The translations under genes and the position numbers were made by a program. From positions 1 through 44,682 of the forward strand of contig NZ_PSTT01000045.1 in assembly GCF_002931235.1 (NCBI RefSeq): a stretch of 44,682 nucleotides of DNA, written 5' to 3'. Positions 22 to 6,079 of the stretch are shown piece by piece; within the stretch, counting starts at the first letter, position 1; each line of letters begins with the position of its first letter. This DNA comes from Subtercola sp. Z020 (GTDB taxonomy: Bacteria; Actinomycetota; Actinomycetes; Actinomycetales; Microbacteriaceae). Under the pieces are notes generated by a model, which searched no databases, was not told where the DNA came from, and was given only the letters and a program-made list of their open reading frames with translations.

Positions 22-876
22 TTACTCGGAGAGGGGGGCGGCGGCGATCGTGGCGCGGGCGTTGGCCGCGCGGCGGTCGATCTCGGCGAGGGAGGCGGGA
101 GCCGCCGGCAGGGTCTCACCGCGACGCTTCAGCGCAGCCGCGAGCAGCCAGTCGGCCAGCGCCGGGTTGTTCGCGAGAACCGGCCCGTGCAGGTGGGTTC
201 CCACCAGGTTGCCGACCCAGTAGCCCTCGACCCGGGCATCCGGAGCCACCCGGACGGTGCCCTCAGCGGTCGCGCCCGAGGCCGCGATCGCCGCTGCACC
301 TGCCGTCGCGCCCGCACCGGTCGCCGCGACGTTGCCGCGCCCGTAGACCACCCGGCCGACAGGCGCCGCGTCACGGATGTCGATGTACGACCCGCGGTTC
401 TCGAAACCGACGAGGGTGCCGAGCACCGGCGACTCGACGACGAAGTCGCCGACCACGCGCTCACCGGCGACCACGGTGCTGACCGGGAAGACGCCGGCAC
501 CCGTGAGCACCGTGCCCTCCGCGAGCGTCACCGTCTCGCCGAGCAGCTGAAAGCCGGCTCCGACCGCGAGGAAGGGCACTCCGTGCTGCGCCAGCGCCCG
601 CAGAGGGGGCGCGACGACGCTCAGCCACGGGTGCGTCTCGAGCTGCGCCGAAACGGGGCCGCTGCCGATGAAGACCAGGTCCACCGCCGCGGGCAGGGAG
701 TCGCCGTCTTCGTAGCGCTTCACGTTCACGCTGAGCCCCCGGGCTTCGGCCCGGTGCACGAGGATGTCGACGTTGCCGTTCTCCCCGTTCATGCCGAGCG
801 TGCGCGGGAACAGGTGCAGGATGTTCAGTCGCTCTGCGGCCGGGTGGGCCGAGAGCACGTCTGACCGGTCGCTCAT
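22..876 (-). CDS. gatD: GatD-like amidotransferase subunit lacking the catalytic cysteine
   Basis: In other Gram-positives GatD is the glutaminase half of MurT-GatD, supplying ammonia to amidate the alpha-carboxyl of D-Glu in lipid II. This 284-residue protein has the family shape: FENRG near residue 159, and a THLHGP motif near 228-232 holding the family histidine. The nucleophile elbow, however, reads AVGAGFQLLG (about residues 104-113), where the family has a cysteine (as in ICGGFQ-type motifs); here it is glycine. The protein has no cysteine anywhere. FENH is changed to FENR, and an Ala/Gly-rich insert sits at about 186-206. The start ATG (874-876) overlaps the murT stop by four bases, so the two are surely co-translated. 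Seen: the residues and the overlap. Known: family role. Inferred: it is not a glutaminase, and its role is structural or altered. The gene is intact. Confidence 0.85.
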   Translation of the reverse strand: MSDRSDVLSAHPAAERLNILHLFPRTLGMNGENGNVDILVHRAEARGLSVNVKRYEDGDSLPAAVDLVFIGSGPVSAQLETHPWLSVVAPPLRALAQHGVPFLAVGAGFQLLGETVTLAEGTVLTGAGVFPVSTVVAGERVVGDFVVESPVLGTLVGFENRGSYIDIRDAAPVGRVVYGRGNVAATGAGATAGAAAIAASGATAEGTVRVAPDARVEGYWVGNLVGTHLHGPVLANNPALADWLLAAALKRRGETLPAAPASLAEIDRRAANARATIAAAPLSE

Positions 877-2156
877 GCCTGCCCTCCCCCCTCGAGGTCT
901 TTGAACCCGAGGATCTTGCGGATGCCCATCATCTGCTCGTAGTTCAGGATCATCGTCTTGCGGCCCTTCGTCGGCTTCGGCAGCGCGAGGAACTGCCGCA
1001 CGGCGGCCCGCACGTCGAGATCCACCGTGCCGACCGGGATGCCGGCGTAACCGAGGCGAACCGCGAACTGCCAGGCCTTCGAACCGGTGATGACGTCGAC
1101 GTGCGACAGGTTCGACAGGTCGATGTCGTAGATCCACGACGGATCGGGGGTGCCTTCGTCGATCGCCATGAAGACCTGCTCCGGCTCGGCCTCGAGCGAG
1201 TCGAGGTTCAGCTGCAGGCTCGCCGGGTTCTTCATCATGATGATCTCGATGCTCTCCCCGCCGACCTGCAGCAGTTCACCGCGGCCGTACACGGTCGAGA
1301 GACCGCCGAGGGCCGAGGCGACGCGCTCGGGCTGGAAGTCGCTGCCGAGAATGGATCGGGCCGTCGCGGCGGCGCCCGCGGCATCCAGAGCGTAGTGCAG
1401 CCCCCGCGCGGGCAACCGCACCTCGACCTGATGGCCGTCGATGCTCAGAACCGCGCTGGAGTCGCCGAGGGAGACGACCGTGACTGAGGCCTCGCGCTCC
1501 CCGGCGCCGGCGTGCGAGCTGCCGAAACGGTCGGCCGATGCGACACCGTGCGCGGCACCGGCGATGAGCTCGGGCGAGGCGCCGAAGAACGACACGGCGC
1601 GAGACCCCGGAATACGCTGGTCGAGGTCGACCAGATGGTTGTCGTCGCGGTTCAGGATGAGCGCGTCGGTCGACGTCATGGCGACCTCTTCGAGCATGCG
1701 CACGACCCTGTCGGGCTCGTGGTACCGGTTCAGCTGGTCGATCTGGATGTTCAGGAGCAGCACTGTTCGCGGCTGCAGCAGCTTCGCGATCTTCGGGCCG
1801 TAGCCCTCGTCGACCTCGAGGATCGCAATGTCGGCGTCGAGCTTGCCCGAGAGCGAGACGCTCGACAGCACCGAGGAGGCGATACCCTGCGGCAGGTTGC
1901 CGCCGGACGGGTTCGTGAAGACCTTCAGCCCGTGCTCGCGGAGGATCGCCGCCAGCATGTTCGTGGTCGTCGACTTGCCGTTGGAGCCCGACACGGCCAC
2001 GACGCCGCGCGGAATGGCGGCGATCGTGTTCTGGAGGAACCGCGGCGAGATGTTCAGCGCCACCGTTCCGGGAATCGCAGAACCGCCCCCGCGCAGACGC
2101 GCGGCGACTCGTACAGCGCGGCCGACTGCGACGGCAGCGCTGGTGCGAACGCCCAC
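873..2156 (-). CDS. murT: MurT-like Mur ligase without zinc ribbon
   Basis: MurT is the ATP-dependent Mur-ligase half of the lipid II amidase, activating the D-Glu alpha-carboxyl. The 427-residue product has a P-loop SGSNGKSTTT (about 56-65; family usually GTNGKTT), EVDEGYG (114-120), DQLNRY (140-145), and a C-terminal DUF1727-like part with MMKNPASLQ (307-315), DPSWIYDID (338-346) and VRLGYAG (366-372). The segment at about 190-250, where family members carry a four-cysteine zinc ribbon, holds none; the whole protein is cysteine-free. The GTG start lies five bases after the sigA stop and the gene overlaps gatD, so the three form one operon. Assignment to the family is secure. Whether it amidates D-Glu or joins another amine to it is open; loss of the glutaminase site in its partner argues against standard amidation. 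Confidence 0.88.
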   Translation of the reverse strand: MGVRTSAAVAVGRAVRVAARLRGGGSAIPGTVALNISPRFLQNTIAAIPRGVVAVSGSNGKSTTTNMLAAILREHGLKVFTNPSGGNLPQGIASSVLSSVSLSGKLDADIAILEVDEGYGPKIAKLLQPRTVLLLNIQIDQLNRYHEPDRVVRMLEEVAMTSTDALILNRDDNHLVDLDQRIPGSRAVSFFGASPELIAGAAHGVASADRFGSSHAGAGEREASVTVVSLGDSSAVLSIDGHQVEVRLPARGLHYALDAAGAAATARSILGSDFQPERVASALGGLSTVYGRGELLQVGGESIEIIMMKNPASLQLNLDSLEAEPEQVFMAIDEGTPDPSWIYDIDLSNLSHVDVITGSKAWQFAVRLGYAGIPVGTVDLDVRAAVRQFLALPKPTKGRKTMILNYEQMMGIRKILGFKDLEGGGQA

Positions 2157-2160
2157 CGGT

Positions 2161-3555
2161 CTACTCGAGGTAGTCGCGCAGCGACTGCGACCGCGACGGG
2201 TGCCGGAGCTTGGCCATGGTCTTCGACTCGATCTGACGGATGCGCTCGCGCGTCACACCGAACGTGTCGCCGATCTGGTCGAGGGTCTTCGGCATTCCGT
2301 CGCCGAGGCCGAAGCGCATGCGGATCACGCCGGCCTCCCGCTCGGAGAGCGAGTCGAGCAGCGACTCCAGCTGCTTCTGCAGCATGGTGAAACCGACGGC
2401 GTCGGCGGGAACGACCGCCTCGGTGTCTTCGATCAGGTCGCCGAACTCGCTGTCACCGTCTTCACCCAGTGGAGTGTGCAGTGAGATGGGCTCGCGGCCG
2501 TACTTCTGTACCTCGACGACCTTCTCGGGTGTCATGTCGAGTTCGCGGCTCAGCTCTTCGGGCGTGGGCTCGCGACCGAGGTCCTGCAGCATCTGTCGCT
2601 GCACGCGGGCGAGCTTGTTGATGACCTCGACCATGTGCACCGGGATGCGGATAGTGCGGGCCTGGTCGGCCATGGCACGCGTGATCGCCTGCCTGATCCA
2701 CCAGGTGGCGTAGGTGCTGAACTTGAAGCCCTTGGTGTAGTCGAACTTCTCGACGGCACGGATGAGGCCGAGGTTGCCCTCCTGGATCAGGTCGAGGAAC
2801 TGCATGCCGCGACCGGTGTAGCGCTTCGCCAGGCTGACGACCAGGCGCAGGTTGGCGCCGAGCAGGTGGCTCTTGGCGCGCTGGCCGTCTTTGGCGACCC
2901 ACTGCAGCTCGCGCTTGACCTGCGGGGTGAGGTTGTCGGCGTTCGCCAGCTTGTCTTCGGCGAACAGGCCCGCCTCGATGCGCATGGCGAGCTCGACCTC
3001 CTCGGCAGCGTTCAGCAGGGCGACCTTGCCGATCTGCTTCAGGTAGTCCTTGACGGGGTCGGCTGTCGCGCCGGTGATGGCGCTCGAGTAGACCGGAACG
3101 TCGTCATCGTCGTCGACGATCGAGAGCACGAGGGCGCCCGAGGGCAGCGTCTCTGCGCCGGCCGGGGCCTTGGTCTCCTCGTCTGTGTCGTCGTCGGTCG
3201 CGACGGCCTCGGGGTCGACGACGACCACGGCGGCCACGACGTCGTCGGTGTCGTCGCCGCTGGTCTCGTCGGTGCTCGAGTCGTCGGTGTCGACCTCTGT
3301 CACGTCATCGATGTCGACGACGTCTTCTTCGTCGGACTCGGGGCCGGCCTTCGCCTTGCTGGCGGTCGCCTTGCCCTTGGCGGCGGTCTTGGTCGCCGTG
3401 CCGGCGGGCGCCTTGGCGCCGGCGGCGGTCTTCGCGGCGGCGGCAGCCTTGGCGGCAGCAGCCTTCGTCGGAGCCTTGGCGGCGGGGGTCTTGGTCGCGG
3501 ATGCGGGAGTCTTCGTGGCAGCGGCGGTGGCCGCGGGAGCCTTCGTGGTGGCCAT
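2161..3555 (-). CDS. sigA: Primary RNA polymerase sigma factor (SigA/RpoD)
   Basis: Housekeeping sigma-70 factor of 464 residues. Region 2 is clear ([33 protein letters not shown], then the 2.4 helix with [12 protein letters not shown]), region 3 follows, and region 4.2 ends in [12 protein letters not shown]. The N-terminal 160 or so residues are low complexity: Ala/Lys/Thr/Pro-rich for about 80 residues, then very acidic with DD/EE runs, as in other actinobacterial SigA proteins. I chose ATG at 3553-3555 because AAAGGTGA sits five bases upstream; a GTG three codons earlier is in frame but overlaps that site. It leads murT and gatD. The upstream region has unusual repeats (3616-3772). Confidence 0.97.
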
Positions 3556-3615
3556 ACTGATCACCTTTCACACTGGAGGAGGTAACGGGAGGAACCGAAC
3601 GGCACCCCCGCGCCA

Positions 3616-3772
3616 ATGTCAACCAGAGTTGTTTTTTGACATTACTAAGACCCATGTCAAGTGCCGGGTTTTTGCGTGGCCGACGTACAGGCCACCCCAA
3701 CACAAGAACGGGTCTCTGGTGACAATTATTGCACGGATTGCGAACCTTGGCTGACAAGTGGCGCTCTTGTCA
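3616..3772 (-). promoter_or_regulatory. sigA upstream region with clustered TGACA-type repeats
   Basis: The 210-bp gap before sigA holds six copies of a TTGACA/TTGTCA-like heptamer within 160 bp: ATGTCAA at 3616-3622 and 3654-3660, TTGACAT at 3636-3642, TGACAAT at 3720-3726, and a perfect palindrome TGACAAG-N7-CTTGTCA at 3752-3772 that also covers the stop codon of the MFS gene. Some copies may serve as -35 boxes for sigA (minus strand), but the inverted arrangement suggests operators. No convincing -10 could be fixed. The region is more AT-rich than its surroundings. Confidence 0.45.
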
Positions 3773-5083
3773 AGTCCGCTTTCTGGTCCATGCTGCAGAG
3801 AGTGCAACCCACAGGGGGCCGACCGATATTCCCTCGTCCTCCTCCAGCTGCAGTCGCGCCCGGCGTCGTGCGTTCAGCAGGAACAGCACTCCGATGCCGA
3901 TCACGACGTACTGAACGGCGAACGCGACGCGAAAGGCGCTGACGTCGTAGAGGTTGGCGCTCCACCCGGCGCTGTGCAGGGCATCCAGAATCACCCCGAT
4001 GAGAAAGAGCATCACGAAGCTCGCCGTGAACCCGCCCACGTTCACCACGCCGTTCGCCGACCCGAGCGTCTGCGGGGGGTTGAAGGTGCGGGCGAAGTCG
4101 AACCCGATCAGCGAGCCGGGGCCGCCCGCTCCCATCGCAACGACCAGCAGCACGATCAGCCAGAGCGGTGGAGTGCCCGGCCAGACGAGCACCGCCGTCC
4201 ACACGACGCCCAGCATGACCACGATGCCGAGCACCAGGTTCGAGCGGCGCATCGGGAACCGCGCCGTGAGCAGCCCGAGGATCGGTCCCGAGATGAGACC
4301 GACCACGACGATGACCACGAGCAGCCCCGAGGCGAGCGTCGGGCTGTACCCGAGGGCCGAGACCATGAACGGAAAACCCCAGAACAGGGCGAAGACCGTT
4401 CCCGACGACTGGGTCACGAAGTGCGACCAGAAGCCCAACTGTGTGCCCGGTCGCCGCAGGGTCGGGCCGAGGCGCTTCAACACCGCCGCGAGCGTGGGCG
4501 TCTCGATCGCCGCGACCCCGGCCGGCCGGTCGCTCAACACGATCAGGCTCAGGATGAACGCCAGCAGCGCCACGGAGGCCGCCGAGGTGAACGCGACCGA
4601 CCAGCCGGCGGAGTGCAGCACGATCGCGAACGGAACGGCGCTCAGAATCTGCCCGATCGCCCCGAGGTTGCCCATCCACTGCGACAGCTGAGGCACGATG
4701 CGACCCGAGAACCACGAGTTCACGAGCCGGATGACCGAGATGAAGATCGCCGAGTCGCCGGCGCCGACCAGCACGCGGCCGAGGATGGCCGGACCGATGT
4801 CGGTCGAGAACGCGAGAGTGAGCTGGCCGACCACCATAATGGCCGTGCCGGCGACCACCAGGGCCTTCGGCCCGATCCGGTCGATCAGGATGCCGTTCGG
4901 AATCTGCAGTGCGGCGTACACGATCAACTGGACGACGGCCAGACTCGACAGAACAGCCGCCGACGCGTCGAACCGTTCGGCCGCAGAGACGCCGGCGACC
5001 CCGAGGGTGCTCCGTTCGAGCACGGCGGAGACATAGGCCACGGCGGCCACGGCGAAGACGAACCACGACCGCTTTGAGTTCAC
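3770..5083 (-). CDS. MFS family transporter
   Basis: A 437-residue polytopic inner-membrane protein with about 12 hydrophobic segments and two six-helix halves. After helix 2 there is a GILIDRIGPK loop (about 64-73), which matches the MFS G-x-x-x-D-R-x-G-x-K signature. It starts at GTG (5081-5083) as MNSKRSW, and the C-terminal tail is basic and charged. Substrate cannot be told from sequence; the family includes nitrate/nitrite, sugar phosphate and drug carriers. It stands alone on the minus strand upstream of sigA, and its stop lies inside the palindrome at 3752-3772. No weak initiation or frame damage was seen beyond the GTG start. Confidence 0.85.
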   Translation of the reverse strand: MNSKRSWFVFAVAAVAYVSAVLERSTLGVAGVSAAERFDASAAVLSSLAVVQLIVYAALQIPNGILIDRIGPKALVVAGTAIMVVGQLTLAFSTDIGPAILGRVLVGAGDSAIFISVIRLVNSWFSGRIVPQLSQWMGNLGAIGQILSAVPFAIVLHSAGWSVAFTSAASVALLAFILSLIVLSDRPAGVAAIETPTLAAVLKRLGPTLRRPGTQLGFWSHFVTQSSGTVFALFWGFPFMVSALGYSPTLASGLLVVIVVVGLISGPILGLLTARFPMRRSNLVLGIVVMLGVVWTAVLVWPGTPPLWLIVLLVVAMGAGGPGSLIGFDFARTFNPPQTLGSANGVVNVGGFTASFVMLFLIGVILDALHSAGWSANLYDVSAFRVAFAVQYVVIGIGVLFLLNARRRARLQLEEDEGISVGPLWVALSAAWTRKRT

Positions 5084-5143: not shown

Positions 5144-6079
5144 CTACAGCCCGACGAAACCGGGACCCGAGTCATCGCCCCGGCGCTTGATCGCGAGAAA
5201 GTTCTCGAGCTCGGCGGCGATCTCGTCGGCCGACGGCAGCTCGCCGTCTTCATCGGTGAGCGGCGACCGCAGGCCGGCGTTCTCCATATAGCTGTCGTGC
5301 CGCTCTTCGAGGGTGCCGACGAGCTTCTCGAGTTCGGTGTTCGACTTCACCTGCTGGTCGATCTTCGTCAGGAACTCCCGACCCTCTTCGCGCAGCCGGT
5401 CAGTCGGAAAGATCAACCCGGTCGCCGCACTGATGCTCTCGAGGGAGGCGACCGCGGCCAGCGGGTACTCCGTGTCTGCGAGGTAGTGCGGGATGAGCAG
5501 AACGAACCCCGCGACCGGGTGCCCGAGCTGCTGCAGCCGATACTCGACGAGGTGCAGGGCGTTGGCCGGCACCTGCGTGTGCGGCCGCCAGACCGACATC
5601 GCATCGGTCAGCTCGACACGGTTGCCGCTCACGGTCACACTGATCGGCCGCGTGTGCGGAACGGGCATCGGAATGGCGTGCACCCACGTCGTGGTCTTCA
5701 CCTGGAAGCGATCGACAAGGCCGAGCACGGCCGCCGTGAACTGCTCCCAGCGGAAGTCGGGCTCGAAGCCGTGCAGGAACAGGAACTGCTGCCCGATCTC
5801 GTCGCTGACGAGAAAGAGACGGAGGGTCTGCGGCTGGTAGTCGGTGAGGTGGTCCTGGTCGAAGTCGACGATCGGCCGGCGAGCCCGGTAGTCGAGCAGG
5901 GTGTCGGCGTCGAACTCGGCGACCACACGGTTGTTGAGCGTGTCGAGCACGTAGTCGCCGAACTGGCTGACGGCCGCCCCCGCGTCTGTGAAGCCCGTGA
6001 GGGCGGCCACGAGCGGCAGGCCCTCCGGGATCATGCCGACCTCGTCTGCCAATTCGAACAACTCAGTCGGATCCTTCAT
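5144..6079 (-). CDS. PAC2 family protein (proteasome assembly chaperone-like)
   Basis: The 311-residue product matches actinobacterial PAC2 (DUF75-type) proteins, with ALTGFTDAG near residue 26, SDEIGQQFLFLHGFEPDFRWE near 91, VPHTRP near 141 and HLVEYRLQQLGHPVAGFVLLIPHYL near 175. The family is named for eukaryotic proteasome assembly chaperones; the bacterial function is not established. The C-terminal third is charged and probably helical. The start ATG (6077-6079) is six bases after a TAGAGT box, giving a likely leaderless mRNA divergent from pepA. Some phages of the name in databases call it ATP-grasp-like, which I see no motif to support. Confidence 0.85.
   Translation of the reverse strand: MKDPTELFELADEVGMIPEGLPLVAALTGFTDAGAAVSQFGDYVLDTLNNRVVAEFDADTLLDYRARRPIVDFDQDHLTDYQPQTLRLFLVSDEIGQQFLFLHGFEPDFRWEQFTAAVLGLVDRFQVKTTTWVHAIPMPVPHTRPISVTVSGNRVELTDAMSVWRPHTQVPANALHLVEYRLQQLGHPVAGFVLLIPHYLADTEYPLAAVASLESISAATGLIFPTDRLREEGREFLTKIDQQVKSNTELEKLVGTLEERHDSYMENAGLRSPLTDEDGELPSADEIAAELENFLAIKRRGDDSGPGFVGL

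Follow-up and report, generated by a model that had tools for sequence, protein, structure and literature searches.

The window, by which we mean the whole 44,682-nucleotide (nt) stretch of DNA that was analysed, comprises positions 1 to 44,682 of contig NZ_PSTT01000045.1 of Subtercola sp. Z020, a member of the Microbacteriaceae. At its left end lies a pair of genes resembling murT and gatD, the genes of lipid II isoglutaminyl synthase, in which the GatD-like protein lacks the catalytic cysteine. A first-pass annotation had placed such a cysteine-less pair at 22-2156 and had proposed that it attaches the first bridge residue to D-Glu in group B peptidoglycan. The existence of the pair was confirmed by Pfam searches, alignment, predicted fold, the ratio of nonsynonymous to synonymous substitution rates (dN/dS) and its recurrence throughout the family. 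It has the following features:

873..2156, minus strand: murT-like gene, 427 amino acids (aa), with Mur_ligase_M and MurT_C domains, P-loop GSNGKST, E114 and D338, without a zinc ribbon
22..876, minus strand: gatD-like gene, 284 aa, class I amidotransferase fold, Gly106 for the catalytic Cys, His230 present
559..561, minus strand: codon of GatD Gly106, at the place of the catalytic cysteine (computed from the gene start and read in the sequence)
187..189, minus strand: codon of GatD His230, the equivalent of S. aureus His189 (computed from the gene start and read in the sequence)
1143..1145, minus strand: codon of MurT Asp338, the equivalent of S. aureus Asp349 (from the alignment and the computed place, read in the sequence)

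The ATG of gatD (874-876) overlaps the stop codon of murT, and murT is separated by a gap of 4 nt from the stop of a sigA-like open reading frame (ORF; 2161-3564); all three genes are on the minus strand. In Pfam searches the murT ORF matched Mur_ligase_M (4e-12) and MurT_C (2.6e-9) and the gatD ORF matched GATase_3 (3.8e-16). Among four genomes of the window's genus, dN/dS was 0.07-0.24 for GatD and 0.08-0.17 for MurT. These low values indicate that both proteins are in use and rule out a reading of the genes as pseudogenes. The MurT-GatD pair of the window is real and intact. The genome from which it comes (98.7 % complete) gave a single MurT_C match, so no second pair was seen there. The closest named MurT is that of Herbiconiux (76 %).

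Catalytic residues and fold of the pair

The nucleophile elbow of the window GatD reads FLAVGAGFQLLG, against LTICGGYQFLG in S. aureus. In the alignment, Gly106 occupies the place of S. aureus Cys94, while His230 (in THLHGP), the equivalent of His189, is retained. Not a single Cys residue occurs over the whole length of either the MurT or the GatD of the window. In MurT, K61, E114 and D338 align with K59, E108 and D349 of the S. aureus protein. According to the accessible excerpt of a study on the S. aureus enzyme, amidation of lipid II was abolished in vitro by the GatD changes C94S and C94G, and was lost or severely reduced with MurT D349N (PMC6113224). Judged by its sequence, the window GatD is a natural C94G variant, carrying a change with which the S. 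aureus enzyme is inactive. The earlier suggestion that the partner of MurT has lost its ammonia-making centre is supported: no type I GatD that was read (the type is defined below) has the glutaminase cysteine, and MurT still looks catalytic.

AlphaFold2 models of GatD and MurT had predicted local distance difference test (pLDDT) values of 87.6 and 85.4, respectively. With Foldseek, the top matches of the GatD model were GatD proteins, with template modelling (TM) scores of 0.75/0.86 to 6gs2_A; those of the MurT model were MurT proteins of wall amidation, and other proteins with the Mur ligase fold were matched too. The nearest solved relatives by both sequence and fold are the MurT-GatD complexes of S. 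aureus (6gs2/6h5e), S. pneumoniae (6fqb) and S. pyogenes (9sq9). Neither protein reached the NCBIfam equivalog cut-offs, MurT scoring 114 of 800 bits and GatD 80 of 400 and 113 of 450 bits.

Distribution of cysteine-less and canonical pairs

An evenly drawn sample of 149 Microbacteriaceae genomes, each at least 90 % complete, was searched, of which 121 had a readable GatD. The counts over genomes or loci given here, and the associations drawn from them, are inflated by kinship, and the named genomes partly coincide with the unnamed ones. Cysteine-less pairs of type I, in which MurT, like that of the window, has no zinc ribbon, were present in 95 genomes and those of type II, described below, in nine; 14 genomes had a canonical pair only and three had both kinds. 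MurT was absent from 27 genomes, 21 with a CofE-like gene and six with neither, and the last genome had a partial murT only. The 121 genomes with a readable GatD accordingly divide into 104 with a cysteine-less pair only, 14 with a canonical pair only and three with both. In all, 109 distinct cysteine-less GatD genes were found in 107 genomes. The cysteine is replaced by G in 73 of them, A in 17, H in eight, N in five, S in four and T in two; it was missing from every type I GatD read. The catalytic His is retained in 66 of the 109 genes and lost in 43, and is present in all 17 canonical GatD genes of the family.

Type II pairs (L113, L118, L124, L130, L136 and L252-L257) were found in eight genera. 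Their GatD has the elbow FTHNA, with neither Cys nor His, and their MurT carries two CxxC motifs resembling a zinc ribbon (four of five examined), a motif found in none of 23 type I MurTs. Three genomes contain both a canonical and a cysteine-less pair (L082/L020 in G113, L088/L021 in G050 and L083/L017 in G060), and two contain two cysteine-less pairs (L084/L085 in G111 and L086/L087 in G145). Three murT matches have one in-frame stop (G011:C1:693938-695143, G143:C1:217830-219044 and G060:C45:37150-38409).

Outside the family, the canonical residues prevail. From 92 MurT_C matches in the same order, the 30 best-scoring loci and 20 others were read: GatD had Cys and His in 30 of 30 and in 19 of 19 readable cases, respectively, one stretch being without GatD. 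A sample of the phylum yielded 156 MurT_C matches in 296 genomes; of the 20 loci read, mostly low-scoring ones, two stretches had no GatD and 15 of the 18 readable GatDs had both residues. The total outside the family is 64 of 67 readable GatDs with Cys and His. The type I pair was seen in Microbacteriaceae only (outside, 70 stretches of about 240 MurT_C matches were examined).

The first-pass annotation had predicted the pair in all B-type and in no A-type genera. Presence in all B-type members is contradicted by the 27 family genomes without MurT, the 14 with a canonical pair only and two canonical Leucobacter genomes, and a cysteine-less pair as a universal group B marker is ruled out by the first two of these groups. 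An exclusive match with B-type walls was likewise not found for all cysteine-less pairs taken together, because of these MurT-lacking or canonical family genomes and of type II-like pairs outside the family; type I, in the stretches examined, was confined to Microbacteriaceae.

FemAB (PF02388) is the classical family that adds bridge residues, and Fem enzymes use aminoacyl-tRNA. A PF02388 match was present in 11 of 14 genomes with only a canonical pair vs eight of 104 with only a cysteine-less pair (Fisher p = 2.3e-8, uncorrected for kinship), and with a best E-value of 1e-8 or lower in only two of the 104. The other classes had matches in none of three (both pairs), one of 21 (CofE) and four of six (neither). 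Among 26 further genomes, mostly named, only the two Leucobacter genomes had FemAB, which thus accompanies the canonical pair in that genus too. The window's own genome gave no PF02388 match; the pair itself matches other Pfam families.

The position next to sigA and the CofE-like ligase

Three neighbours of the pair in the window are:

2161..3564, minus strand: sigA-like gene, the upstream neighbour marking the slot, a primary sigma factor by the look of its translation
3770..5083, minus strand: major facilitator superfamily (MFS) transporter-like gene, a frequent neighbour (named by eye)
5144..6079, minus strand: PAC2-like gene, a frequent neighbour (named by eye)

In 16 of 20 neighbourhoods examined sigA directly precedes murT, and all 16 pairs are cysteine-less. 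The remaining four, with no sigA in the stretch, comprise three canonical pairs (L111, L112 and L114) and one second cysteine-less pair (L109). When named genomes were scanned with a SigA consensus, 80 loci were obtained, 74 of them titled Microbacteriaceae or one of its genera. At these loci murT was found 39 times and a protein of the F420_ligase (CofE) family 37 times; no locus had both and four had neither, of which two are incomplete and two are from Leucobacter (L228 and L226). The distance of murT from sigA was at most 100 nt at 34 of the 39 loci and 0.6-1.1 kb at four, and one match overlapped sigA. Cys was absent from all 38 gatD genes read at named loci; the murT locus L191 yielded no gatD.

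The CofE-like slot protein is about 231 aa long and scores 44-49 bits with Pfam F420_ligase (L155, L166, L171, L182, L186, L214 and 31 more), but only 28 of the 181 bits of the F420_cofE equivalog cut-off. An ATPgrasp_ST protein lies nearby at 34 of 37 CofE loci vs one of 39 murT loci, and by genome class an ATP-grasp protein was present in 19 of 21 CofE, one of 95 type I and four of nine type II genomes. The CofE-like protein and ATPgrasp_ST are possibly a new pair of wall ligases. No MurT was found anywhere in nine CofE genomes searched whole. Conversely, among the 149 family genomes, CofE at E<1e-90 was present in 21 of 27 lacking MurT and in none of 122 having it. It lies within 100 nt after sigA in 19 of these 21, at 1.45 kb in one and on another contig in one. 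Three MurT-having genomes gave weaker CofE matches (1e-38 to 1e-44). A diverged murT hidden after sigA in the MurT-lacking genomes was ruled out by a motif search: no ORF with G[ST][NR]GK[ST] occurred within 1.5 kb downstream of sigA in any of the 27 (in two of them, only 186 and 981 nt were present).

When the MurT and CofE states were placed on the best tree of a quick SigA+ParE analysis of 66 named loci, seven exchanges were obtained, five of them forced by well-supported branches. Genera within which exchanges fall include Microbacterium, Salinibacterium and Microcella: MurT is present in Microbacterium aoyamense, Salinibacterium soli and Microcella putealis, and CofE in their respective relatives M. 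kyungheense, Salinibacterium strain NG253 and M. alkaliphila.

Several observations were made in individual genomes. In two of the three genomes with weaker CofE matches, G049 and G112 (L258 and L259), the weak CofE-like gene adjoins a MurT-like and a GatD-like gene. Alanine-racemase-like genes lie near the slot in L166 and L171 (by Pfam) and in L152 (11934-13088) and L214 (by eye). The contig of L207, titled Stenotrophomonas maltophilia, groups within Microbacterium and is a mislabelled or contaminated record.

Proposed role in group B cross-bridge formation

Group B walls, as Schleifer and Kandler reportedly set out in 1972, are cross-linked through D-Glu. The wall of Leucobacter is of group B, the bridges of Microbacterium contain Gly, and group B walls also occur in the Firmicutes Erysipelothrix and Eubacterium. 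According to the accessible excerpts of the papers concerned, D-diaminobutyrate (D-Dab) joins D-Glu to D-Ala in Clavibacter (PMC9603630); the diamino acid is diaminobutyrate (DAB) in Cryobacterium and Glaciihabitans and D-Lys in Frigoribacterium (PMC7033078); Agreia has L-DAB with D-Orn (PMC5945732); Microbacterium has L-Lys, D-Orn or DAB (PMC10757982), with Orn in M. schleiferi (PMC10978784). A literature search, with subscription journals mostly outside it, gave no ligase for the group B bridge among the matches listed, and no paper that brought together MurT, GatD and Microbacteriaceae.

At named loci, the place of GatD His189 is occupied by His in eight genera with diaminobutyrate, by Gln in Curtobacterium and the four MurT-bearing Microbacterium loci, and by Lys in Frigoribacterium and Agreia; exceptions are Gly in L164 (Leifsonia) and L170 (Cryobacterium) and His in Microcella putealis. 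In this comparison the diamino acids of Glaciihabitans, Cryobacterium, Frigoribacterium and Agreia come from the papers above, those of the other genera from general knowledge. The diaminobutyrate transaminase family TIGR00709 was tried as an indicator of the diamino acid and was uninformative, as 23 of 26 genomes matched at 1e-60 and two passed the cut-off.

The reading that we moderately favour is that the pair is glutaminase-dead and that its MurT couples one of the amino acids of the group B bridge to a carboxyl group, probably that on the alpha carbon of D-Glu; we infer the substrate, the amine and the present role of GatD. MurT would bind ATP and activate a peptidoglycan precursor at one of its carboxyls; as with canonical MurT, this would most likely be the alpha-carboxyl of the D-Glu in position 2. 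An amino acid, instead of ammonia derived from GatD, would then be coupled to it, most likely the first (and often only) residue of the bridge, i.e. a D-diamino acid or, in some species, glycine. The cysteine-less GatD would have a structural part in the pair: it would complete the active site of MurT and might help to choose the amine. Elsewhere in the family the CofE-like amide ligase, usually with the ATP-grasp ligase, probably does the same job. Two lines of reasoning lead here. The swapping of two unrelated amide ligases at one locus, mostly without FemAB, is best explained by one shared bridge-building step. Moreover, the D-Glu alpha-carboxyl is both the target of canonical MurT and the point at which the cross-link of group B walls is made, so a MurT fed a diamino acid or glycine would make the required bond. 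In many Microbacteriaceae, though not in all, the group B bridge is probably the work of the cysteine-less lineage, for which the CofE-like ligase is a natural substitute. Of the bridge-ligase role put forward at first, the core has thus gained from the other amide ligase in the slot of relatives and from the near absence of FemAB, while its family-wide extent has not survived.

More tentatively, and with less confidence than in the coupling step itself, the place next to sigA might be a slot in which ligases that begin the group B cross-bridge replace one another, and which is filled in three ways: by a type I MurT-GatD pair, mostly alone; by the zinc-ribbon type II pair; or by the unrelated CofE-like protein with an ATP-grasp protein. 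One ligase would suffice for one-residue bridges (D-Dab, D-Orn or D-Lys) and two would be needed for two-residue bridges (Gly plus a diamino acid). This is suggested by the presence of MurT alone in genera with one-residue bridges and of CofE with ATP-grasp at most Microbacterium loci; this scheme leaves the four MurT-bearing Microbacterium loci unexplained. In addition, the inactive glutaminase centre of GatD may have turned into a site that selects the amine.

A number of results weigh against a bridge-building role. D-Glu amidation is listed among the muropeptide modifications of Clavibacter in the excerpt cited above (PMC9603630). Six of the 149 genomes have neither MurT nor CofE, and two of these lack FemAB as well. 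FemAB matches occur in the eight cysteine-less genomes mentioned above, and none was seen in the three genomes with both pairs. Two named Leucobacter genomes (L351 and L352) have a canonical MurT-GatD with Cys and His away from sigA; the Leucobacter wall, if of group B, can thus be made without a cysteine-less pair, beside an amidating one. Three loci of another class (L233, L234 and L235; two in family f55 and one in f34) have a type II-like GatD without Cys and His. Type II MurT has Asn at the place of D349 in five of five examined, for which reason its chemistry may differ again. Finally, in six independent pairs, MurT and CofE were opposite in five and showed no difference in one (p 0.0625), too few to reach 0.05.

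The strongest rival, although unlikely, is that the pair still amidates D-Glu, MurT using free ammonia and GatD being a dead scaffold. The retained C-terminal motif and D349 equivalent of MurT and the amidation reported for Clavibacter agree with this. It fits poorly with the three genomes that hold a canonical amidating pair beside the cysteine-less one, and with an amide in place the carboxyl in question would no longer be free to form a cross-link. The slot is, moreover, shared with a CofE-like ligase, and the known member of that family couples an amino acid, not ammonia. A smaller chance is given to a pair that puts a non-bridge amino acid on the D-Glu alpha-carboxyl, such as the glycine that occurs there in some A-type walls. 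Carboxyl and chemistry would be the same, and exchange with another amide ligase would fit equally; with FemAB nearly absent (8/104 and 1/21), however, another bridge builder would be needed. It is clearly improbable that the pair is a Mur-ligase-like enzyme from outside wall synthesis, joining some other acid and amine: both proteins do lie far under the NCBIfam cut-offs, but the top Foldseek matches are the MurT and GatD of wall amidation and the FemAB pattern also speaks for the wall. A relaxed relic of little function, with GatD being lost, can hardly be credited, since GatD diverges more than MurT across genera but is under the purifying selection described above and is retained, cysteine-less, beside MurT in 107 of 121 genomes.

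If the bridge-ligase reading is true, such pairs should not be read as lipid II isoglutaminyl synthases. The analysis provides named candidate genes for the group B bridge ligase and an example of a textbook glutaminase that has been naturally inactivated yet retained under selection. The natural swaps between close relatives allow a direct test of the prediction.

Compared with known systems, the pair is closest to the MurT-GatD lipid II isoglutaminyl synthases of the structures given above, with which it shares the two-gene arrangement, domain architecture, ATP site, fold and D349 equivalent. It differs from them in the missing catalytic Cys, in the loss of His from 43 of 109 family genes, in the lack of CxxC from type I MurTs (23/23) and in scores far under the NCBIfam cut-offs. 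FemAB resembles it in the proposed job of adding bridge residues and in its complementary occurrence, but has an unrelated fold and draws on aminoacyl-tRNA where MurT uses ATP. CofE, the F420-0:gamma-glutamyl ligase (PF01996), belongs to the same Pfam family as the slot protein, which lies far under the equivalog cut-off; it has no homology with MurT, although the slot protein and MurT would both spend a nucleotide on linking a carboxyl with an amine. MurD, MurE and MurF add amino acids to the stem in an ATP-dependent manner, and the Mur ligase fold is common to them and MurT, as the Foldseek matches indicate. MurT, for its part, is without their full N-terminal part, according to the accessible excerpt (PMC6113224), and has GatD as a partner.

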